Of a DNA stretch of 64,000 nt, positions 36,445-37,976 are shown one piece after another (within the stretch, counting starts at the first letter, position 1; each line of letters starts with the position of its first letter). Where the stretch lies: positions 1,364,001 to 1,428,000 of the forward strand of contig NZ_CP044507.1 in the NCBI RefSeq assembly GCF_008831505.1, in the 5' to 3' direction. The DNA comes from Chryseobacterium sp. (GTDB taxonomy: Bacteria; Bacteroidota; Bacteroidia; Flavobacteriales; Weeksellaceae). The translations under genes and the position numbers were made by a program. The notes below the pieces were generated by a model. That model worked only from the letters and a program-made list of their open reading frames with translations, was not told the DNA's origin and did not search any database.

Positions 36445-36861
36445 TTAGAATATTTCTCTGCCTGAAAAATGGAACTGAGCTTCAATAAGTGCATTTTCAT
36501 CAGAATCTGAACCATGTACCGCGTTCTCGCCTACACTTCTTGCGAACATTTTTCTGATGGTACCTTCTGCAGCATCAGCAGGGTTGGTAGCACCAATAAG
36601 CGTTCTGAAATCTTCAACCGCATTATCCTTCTCCAAAACCGCAGCAACAATAGGACCTGAACTCATAAATTCCACAAGTTCTCCGTAAAAAGGACGCTCG
36701 CTGTGAACTTCGTAAAATTTCTTAGCATCACTCAGAGTAAGCTGAGTAAGCTTCAATGCTTTTATTTTGAATCCGGCTTCAGCAATTTTTCCTAAAATTG
36801 CGCCTATGTGCCCGTCTGCAACTGCATCTGGCTTGATCATCGTAAATGTGATTCCTGACAT
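36445..36861 (-). CDS. ndk: Nucleoside diphosphate kinase
   Basis: 138 residues. [15 protein letters not shown] start, and the catalytic His in NAVHGSDS. Balances NTP pools by a phospho-His intermediate. A -7 box lies 25 bp upstream of the ATG. Confidence 0.97.
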
Positions 36862-36947: not shown

Positions 36948-36963
36948 TGGCACGCGACTTGCT
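36948..36963 (+). promoter_or_regulatory. Sigma-54 (RpoN) type promoter
   Basis: TGGCAC-GCGAC-TTGCT is an exact match to the -24/-12 consensus TGGCAC-N5-TTGCW. Expected start near 36973. It is in an intergenic space and points to a 9-codon ORF and a terminator, not to a known gene. rpoN itself is outside the window. Confidence 0.7.
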
Positions 36964-36981
36964 TACTAAAATCAGATTCTC

Positions 36982-37011
36982 ATGTTTAATTTGAGTTTTC
37001 ATGGTTATTAG
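36982..37011 (+). CDS. Possible 9-codon peptide ORF in a sigma-54 transcript
   Basis: ATG at 36982 encodes MFNLSFHGY then TAG. It begins about 9 bp after the predicted sigma-54 start and ends 5 bp before the terminator stem, so it nearly fills a transcript of about 70 nt. Whether it is translated or the RNA itself is active cannot be told. It does not overlap the flanking minus-strand genes ndk and rsgA. Confidence 0.35.
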   Translation: MFNLSFHGY

Positions 37012-37016
37012 TTTTT

Positions 37017-37041
37017 ACCCAGCTTCGGCTGGGTTTTTTTG
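37017..37041 (+). terminator. Terminator of the short sigma-54 transcript
   Basis: ACCCAGC-TTCG-GCTGGGT with a UUCG tetraloop, then seven T. No conventional plus-strand gene lies between it and the bidirectional terminator at 36.4 kb. Confidence 0.85.
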
Positions 37042-37043
37042 TG

Positions 37044-37976
37044 CTAAAAACCTTCCTGCTCCAGCGCATCTGCTTCCTCCATGAGTTTGAGATAGGTGGA
37101 ATACCTGGTTTCTTCGATTTCACCAGTCTCAAGGCCTGCTAAAACCGCACATTTTGGTTCATTGATGTGCAGACAGTTATAGAACTTGCATTCATCCGAC
37201 TTCCGGAAGATATCCGGAAAATAGTGCTGCACCTCCTCCTTAAGTACATCAATCATAGCGAACTCCCGTACACCGGGCGTATCGATTACGCTTCCGCCAA
37301 AATCCCAAAAATGCATCTGTGCGAAAGTGGTCGTATGTTTACCTTTCAGATGAGTTTCGGAAATTTCCGAGGTTTTAAGGTTCAAACCGGGCTGAAAAGC
37401 ATTGACTAAAGTAGACTTTCCGGCACCTGAATGTCCGAAGAATACCGAAACCCTGTCTTTAAGCCTCTGCTGCAGCAAATCCAGATTCAGTTTGGTATAA
37501 GAGGACACCTGAAGCGTTTCGTAGCCAATATTGTGGTACATCTCTTCAATGTTCCGGATTATTTCCGCTTCATCTTCGTTCAGGGTATCCATCTTACTCA
37601 TCAGGATGAGTGGCTCAATATTATACGCTTCGCAGCAAGCCAGGAAACGGTCCAGAAAACCCAGGGATGTCTCCGGAAACTTTAGCGTATAGATAAAACA
37701 GGCAATATCAATATTGGATGCAATGATATGTGCTTCTTTTGAAAGGTTTACAGACTTCCGGATCAGGTAATTGCGGCGGGTTTCAATTTTTGTGATCCAG
37801 GCTACACTGTCCTTTTCCAGCTGAAACTCCACATGGTCCCCCACGGCCAAAGGATTCGTTAATCGTGTTTTTATGAGTTTAAACTTACCTCTGATCCGCG
37901 CCTCGTACACCTGCCTGGTGTCATGCTCCATCACCTGATACCAGCTGCCGGTGGATTTTATCACAAGTCCTTTCAT
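37044..37976 (-). CDS. rsgA: Ribosome small-subunit GTPase RsgA
   Basis: 310 residues. OB-fold N-terminus, circularly permuted GTPase with MSKMD (G4) before GHSGAGKST (G1) and DTPGVREF (G3), then a zinc knuckle CKFYNCLHINEPKC (Cys-Cys-His-Cys). Helps late 30S maturation. The DAHP synthase gene ends 9 bp upstream. Confidence 0.97.
   Translation of the reverse strand: MKGLVIKSTGSWYQVMEHDTRQVYEARIRGKFKLIKTRLTNPLAVGDHVEFQLEKDSVAWITKIETRRNYLIRKSVNLSKEAHIIASNIDIACFIYTLKFPETSLGFLDRFLACCEAYNIEPLILMSKMDTLNEDEAEIIRNIEEMYHNIGYETLQVSSYTKLNLDLLQQRLKDRVSVFFGHSGAGKSTLVNAFQPGLNLKTSEISETHLKGKHTTTFAQMHFWDFGGSVIDTPGVREFAMIDVLKEEVQHYFPDIFRKSDECKFYNCLHINEPKCAVLAGLETGEIEETRYSTYLKLMEEADALEQEGF

Follow-up and report, generated by a model that had tools for sequence, protein, structure and literature searches.

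An apparently undescribed small RNA family of Weeksellaceae with a predicted RpoN-driven founder copy between ndk and rsgA

The locus considered here lies in a stretch of 64,000 nucleotides of Chryseobacterium sp. DNA (NCBI RefSeq assembly GCF_008831505.1, contig NZ_CP044507.1, positions 1,364,001 to 1,428,000, forward strand; hereafter the window). The host has a genome of 2.76 Mb and belongs to the Weeksellaceae, a family with Chryseobacterium, Kaistella, Bergeyella and Cloacibacterium among its members. Within about 90 bp between two minus-strand genes, a sigma-54 promoter motif is followed by a nine-codon open reading frame (ORF) and a terminator, which raises the question of whether this unit specifies a peptide signal, a regulatory RNA or nothing at all. 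The original prediction had described the promoter, ORF and terminator between two minus-strand genes, and the unit is located as it described (Table 1). The element is much larger than was visible to that first reading. It belongs to a small RNA (sRNA) family that is real and, it appears, previously undescribed, for which sequence comparison suggests an RpoN-driven founder copy at the window locus.

Table 1. Features of the predicted sRNA locus and a related gene (window coordinates unless a contig or locus is given).
Feature	Position	Strand	Remarks
Sigma-54 promoter TGGCACGCGACTTGCT (TGGCAC-N5-TTGCT)	36948-36963	+	-24 TGGCAC 36948-36953; -12 TTGC 36959-36962
Predicted small RNA, ~66 nt	36974..37040	+	Predicted start (+1) placed 12 nt past the C of -12 (36962)
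5' hairpin CUCA-N9-UGAG	36979..36995	+	Fold; outer-pair covariation across genera
Single-stranded seed UUUUCAUGGUUAUUAGUUUUU	36996..37016	+	Invariant; complementary to AAAAACTAATAACC-ATG-AAAA start-codon regions
Intrinsic terminator ACCCAGC-UUCG-GCUGGGU + U7 (DNA ACCCAGC-TTCG-GCTGGGT + T7)	37017-37040	+	Compensatory changes in the stem
Nine-codon ORF ATGTTTAATTTGAGTTTTCATGGTTATTAG (MFNLSFHGY*)	36982-37011	+	Incidental, not a conserved gene
ndk, conserved upstream neighbour	36445-36861	-	Adjoins 146/149 promoter-bearing loci
rsgA, conserved downstream neighbour	37044-37976	-	Found in 110/149 promoter-bearing loci
mini-RpoN gene	G000:C1:1775595-1776014; locus L004 1246-1929	+	PF04552 match

The promoter string by itself is not beyond chance; exact copies of TGGCAC-N5-TTGCT number two in the genome versus two for a reversed control. 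The sole other genomic copy (G000:C1:1522698-1522713, plus strand, in L002) lies about 190 bp upstream of an ORF starting with MVNHDYPKPANYDMIVFCHLRWDF. That the unit is real follows instead from the conservation of the transcribed block and of its spacing to the promoter. From +1 to the terminator, the core is 98-100% identical across genera, the surroundings diverge, and the distance to the -24/-12 element is fixed. The element is kept in 81 of the 104 distinct loci with an identical core, and of 60 distinct RpoN-type copies, 50 share a spacing of 14 nt between the G of the -12 element and the core. Across 60 distinct promoter-bearing copies, the upstream columns carry little information outside the -24 and -12 elements. 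At the G that immediately follows the predicted +1, the value per column climbs from less than 1 bit to about 2 bits, and it remains high through the seed. Such a conserved block, starting at the predicted +1 and keeping a fixed distance to the -12 element, is what marks a sigma-54 transcript. A chance promoter is rejected on the strength of this family-wide block and its spacing.

The suggested RpoN control presupposes an rpoN gene, and a full one is present in the genome (Sigma54_DBD, 1.8e-51, in a 496-aa open frame). Beside it stands a stand-alone mini-RpoN of 227 aa, which contains the sigma-54 DNA-binding domain alone (PF04552, 1e-21) without any other sigma-54 region. The window sRNA has the predicted hallmarks of sigma-54 transcription, namely -24 GG and -12 GC at fixed spacing with a putative start about 12 nt downstream. 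On sequence grounds, the case for RpoN control of the predicted sRNA is strong.

In BLAST searches with the intergenic region, all four genomes of the genus (4/4) gave a match; for two of these the conserved part is limited to 36975-37040, which is 100% identical. Family-wide, the sRNA is found in about 279 of 320 Weeksellaceae genomes; BLAST matched 282, of which G010, G214 and G219 (among the g3/g11 matches) are spurious. Conservation in relatives had been named as a check, and motif and RNA core are indeed kept across genera, with the ORF not conserved. The chromosomal copy is flanked by ndk and rsgA across genera, the counts in Table 1 referring to 149 loci with a promoter-bearing copy in a redundant set. 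A single copy occurs in the window's own genome, and many other genomes hold one copy only, while two further genera (g3 and g24) carry diverged forms. Neither the R1 nor the R2 search gave a convincing match outside Weeksellaceae genomes, the candidate L434 excepted, and the remaining weak R2 matches outside the family resemble chance or gene starts. L434 (~1480-1575, family f7) is a candidate distant homolog with a TGGCAT..TTGG promoter (TGGCATGATGATTGG), GAGUUUUCAUAGUUUUGGCUUUU / GAGTTTTCATAGTTTTGGCTTTT and a terminator. The sRNA was not found in PLSDB plasmids or INPHARED phages by 'distant' BLAST. No Rfam family reached its gathering score, the only match in the window being a tRNA elsewhere, and a known Rfam family is rejected, as cmscan gave no match to the sRNA. 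Likewise, no description of it was found in the literature on sRNAs in Chryseobacterium, Riemerella and Elizabethkingia or on links between RpoN and sRNAs in Bacteroidetes.

The predicted fold (z = -3.5) comprises a 5' hairpin (CUCA..UGAG), an unpaired seed and the terminator. Between genera, the outer pair of the hairpin changes from C-G to U-A in a compensated manner, so that pairing is kept in 100% of its cells; over all cells in the covariation analysis the paired share is 97%. The terminator stem varies freely in sequence among copies, with compensatory changes at 5/5 modelled pairs. The seed, invariant in 40 diverse copies, is retained even where the 5' hairpin and terminator are swapped out. 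Its constancy while scaffold, promoter and location change marks the seed as the object of selection. The predicted transcript is free-standing, terminated and non-coding and exposes an accessible conserved seed, as is characteristic of trans-acting base-pairing sRNAs. Taken as a prediction, the RNA reading of the unit is strong: the comparisons support its promoter, RNA anatomy, conservation, family distribution and non-coding nature.

Chryseobacterium genomes contain several paralogs each, and the terminators differ among them. Some paralogs have sigma-A-like TAnnTTTG promoters immediately upstream, and others have a variant promoter, with consensus tTGGCACgATtTTTcaATata, in which the -24 element is kept and the usual -12 TTGC is replaced. 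This variant lies just upstream of paralogs at L084, L085, L101, L118, L133 and other loci, and is perhaps read by a different form of sigma-54. In genus g3, which BLAST missed, the sRNA forms tandem arrays of up to 10 copies with a terminator and a diverged seed, UUUUCAUAGUAGUUAGUUUU; the array copies mostly have their own TGGCA[CT]..TTG (-24/-12) promoter. Arrays of 4-10 copies, mostly with a sigma-54 promoter, were observed at L308-L316 and L327, and in several species such arrays lie near a nicotinamidase-like gene (named from ORF reading). A third version of the seed, UUUUCAUGGUACUUAAGUUUU, occurs in g24.

The exact core is also present in ten IMG/VR contigs. Read by sequence, all ten have directly upstream of it either the 3' end of a tRNA or a tRNA followed by a short hairpin; the tRNA-finding programs recognise some of these tRNAs and not others. 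Prophage and phage copies lie either immediately 3' of a tRNA gene or behind a sigma-A promoter. ORF reading indicates prophage gene content at L239, and in further viral contigs the seed is combined with 5' hairpins that differ strongly, among them GGCUGGCC..GGCC. A hairpin with a variable stem and a conserved loop, GTTAAACTACAGGAAATTG, was noticed between phage tRNA genes and the sRNA (L238, L240, L241, L165, L066). One tentative scenario, which we regard as possible and hardly more, is that an RpoN-gated, family-wide stress sRNA has been copied by temperate phages. The same seed would then be expressed as a tRNA 3' trailer or from sigma-A promoters, which would take the host regulon out of RpoN control, and one genus would answer or amplify this with its arrays of up to 10 copies.

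Clues to function come from the seed. Its reverse complement, AAAAACTAATAACC-ATG-AAAA, reads as a start-codon region, and several partial BLAST matches are reverse-complement sites at gene starts or in 5' untranslated regions (UTRs), which suggested that such sites may be targets. Targets were sought by pattern searches. With up to three mismatches allowed and the sRNAs removed, the window's genus has 36 sites versus 5 for reversed controls, among them csgF of curli (PF10614, 1e-16), patatin-like orthologs in two species, a TonB-receptor-like gene and lipoproteins. Eight Chryseobacterium genomes contain 44 exact 15-mer sites, divided into 24 sRNAs, 10 starts of ORFs of at least 40 aa (several being copies of one lipoprotein gene and others RiPP-like precursors) and 10 other sites. 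Predicted duplexes of the seed with candidate sites have energies of -21 to -30 kcal/mol versus about -8 for shuffled seeds. The exact 15-mer complement is absent from all genomes of genera without the main-type seed, a count in which related genomes are not independent samples, and the reversed control gave 3 matches in 320 genomes. The picture is mixed, with enrichment in the main lineage and in Chryseobacterium and none in g3 or the viral contigs. In g3, a swapped test found about 37 sites of its own type versus 34 in controls, which is no excess, and 54 versus 32 for the foreign type; this two-way test did not confirm target co-evolution there. Viral contigs have 9 start sites versus 3-11 for permuted controls, and the excess there is due to sRNA copies.

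The best explanation of the locus, and one that we consider probable, is a free-standing, sigma-54-driven sRNA gene whose seed pairs with translation initiation regions. Sigma-54 RNA polymerase, together with an enhancer-binding protein, would start at about position 36974, and transcription would end at the UUCG terminator to give an RNA of about 66 nt. The 5' hairpin may protect or present the fixed 21-nt unpaired seed, which holds an anti-start-codon CAU with flanks complementary to AAAACTAATAACC-ATG-AAAA. Given this complementarity, the seed would most likely base-pair with the translation initiation regions of mRNAs, chiefly those for exported and envelope proteins, and keep the ribosome from entering. 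Duplication has carried the seed into sibling RNAs, some of them behind sigma-54, variant -24 or sigma-A promoters and some on the 3' side of phage tRNAs. Anti-start-codon pairing is thus the likely, leading mechanism and is short of established, since the seed type of g3 is not enriched in its own genus and viral start sites stay at the level of permuted controls. Transcription itself, RpoN dependence, pairing partners, repression and physiological role are what we infer from this picture; our guess that the RNA trims envelope or secreted proteins fits both the sites and the known sigma-54 regulon of the order.

Other readings of the unit have to be weighed against this one. The original prediction had offered a regulatory RNA or a peptide signal under RpoN control, and it is the regulatory RNA that promoter, +1, core, terminator, rpoN and conservation support well. 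An ATG, nine sense codons and a stop do all fall inside the predicted transcript, as would be expected if the unit encoded the signalling or leader peptide MFNLSFHGY. However, 29 of the 60 distinct cores with a -24/-12 site (most of the 29 being array copies from one genus) do not encode it, as the start is lost, the hairpin rebuilt or the sequence wholly different. Among orthologs, the start is lost in L050 and L061, one-base indels in the hairpin break the frame in L059 and others, and the g3 and g24 types share no common ORF. Invariance is no lower outside the ORF than within it, the changes follow no synonymous or codon pattern, and a peptide gene is therefore rejected as very improbable. 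Equally slight is the chance that prophages spread the sequence as an integration (att) site or mobile DNA element, its terminator being incidental. The copies do adjoin tRNA genes in prophage contigs, but terminators and flanks differ among them, no common ends are seen, every copy has a promoter or tRNA-linked expression signals, and in one genus after another the chromosomal copy has kept its place between ndk and rsgA; this reading, too, is rejected.

More weight, though still a minor share, goes to the view that the invariant stretch serves above all to bind a protein, either an RNA-binding or a ribosomal one. The RNA would then act as a titrator or decoy, with CsrB- or 6S-like logic, and its complementarity to start regions would be secondary. 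Such a site would account equally well for a stretch more invariant than most seeds with evolving targets and held by phages and paralogs in differing scaffolds; a tandem copy number of up to about 10 suits titration, and genomes with a single copy mostly have no second perfect 15-mer complement. On the other hand, one copy suffices in many genomes, and the stretch is a good antisense of a start region, with its CAU in register and sites at real Chryseobacterium starts. An unlikely explanation overall, it ranks behind the base-pairing sRNA.

The logic proposed for this sRNA has parallels in known systems. In enterobacteria, the sigma-E sRNAs MicA and RybB link an alternative sigma factor to the silencing of envelope-protein mRNAs near their starts. 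The window sRNA would resemble them in all three elements, alternative sigma factor, sRNA and envelope mRNAs targeted near the start, and it differs in its sigma factor and shows no sequence relation to them. The sigma-E sRNAs are described in PMC1804206. The closest analogue is the FopS sRNA family of Bacteroides, where FopS and GibS are multicopy paralogous sRNAs with an unpaired seed that pairs near SusC (envelope) start codons, with one phage occurrence (PMC11697453). Common to both are several copies in Bacteroidota, a short unpaired seed plus terminator, phage copies and, here as candidates, start-codon sites at envelope genes. Unlike FopS, which has a canonical sigma-ABfr promoter and belongs to Bacteroidaceae, the window RNA is a Weeksellaceae RNA with a 5' hairpin and a -24/-12 rather than a sigma-ABfr-type promoter, although some paralogs have the TAnnTTTG type. 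Several paralogs with one seed, a FopS/GibS trait, occur in Chryseobacterium and g3, and the window's own genome has a single copy; binding by the RRM-1 protein RbpB is a further trait of the FopS/GibS family. In cmscan, no FopS/GibS match appeared up to E = 10, in an Rfam copy that may not hold a FopS model. Because the promoter type differs and there is no such Rfam match, the sRNA is not classed as FopS.

Within the same order, sigma-54 promoters of Flavobacterium psychrophilum serve genes for chaperones, the envelope and gliding, together with a single putative regulatory RNA (Rfp36); functions in protein quality control and envelope stress, as well as exported proteins, fall within the sigma-54 regulon there (PMC9723704). 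Rfp36, with its sigma-54 SM4 promoter, is likewise a putative sigma-54-driven sRNA, and a relation to the window sRNA is possible. Rfp18 (PMC9723704) is similar as a conserved sRNA of the order with secreted-protein targets (candidate sites here); however, it has at least three stem-loops and pairs via the third, whereas in the window RNA a single small 5' hairpin is followed by the unpaired seed and the terminator.

The family is apparently new for Weeksellaceae, where no described sRNA of this kind was found. An RNA conserved to this degree is usually a central regulator. Little is understood of what RpoN does in Bacteroidota, and the family ties it to a likely post-transcriptional arm. The preservation of the seed across three expression modes (sigma-54, sigma-A and downstream of phage tRNAs) offers a clean natural experiment on how phages may reuse a host regulatory RNA. 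This reading makes sharp predictions, namely that the 5' end lies at 36974, that the RNA depends on RpoN and that it pairs at the start-codon sites named above.

Seed-complement sequences also turned up in further settings. Small RiPP-like precursor genes (MKNKKLEELSKKIT...) at L397 and L422 begin with the exact complement AAAACTAATAACC-ATG, and the precursor sequences tested from these two loci had no Pfam or NCBIfam match. Just upstream of a gene, L070 (949-1042) and L071 have three such sites in tandem, and every one of them comes with a mini-ORF, for example ATG AAA ATT TAA. Also noticed was a repeated 5' UTR sequence, AAAAACTAATAACCAAGAAAACTTAAG, which precedes several small genes of a cassette array in L069 (~1187, 1343, 3364 and 5386). 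In another family (f3), the start of a lipoprotein gene at L433 (~1501-1549) is perfectly complementary to the g3-type seed over 22 nt.
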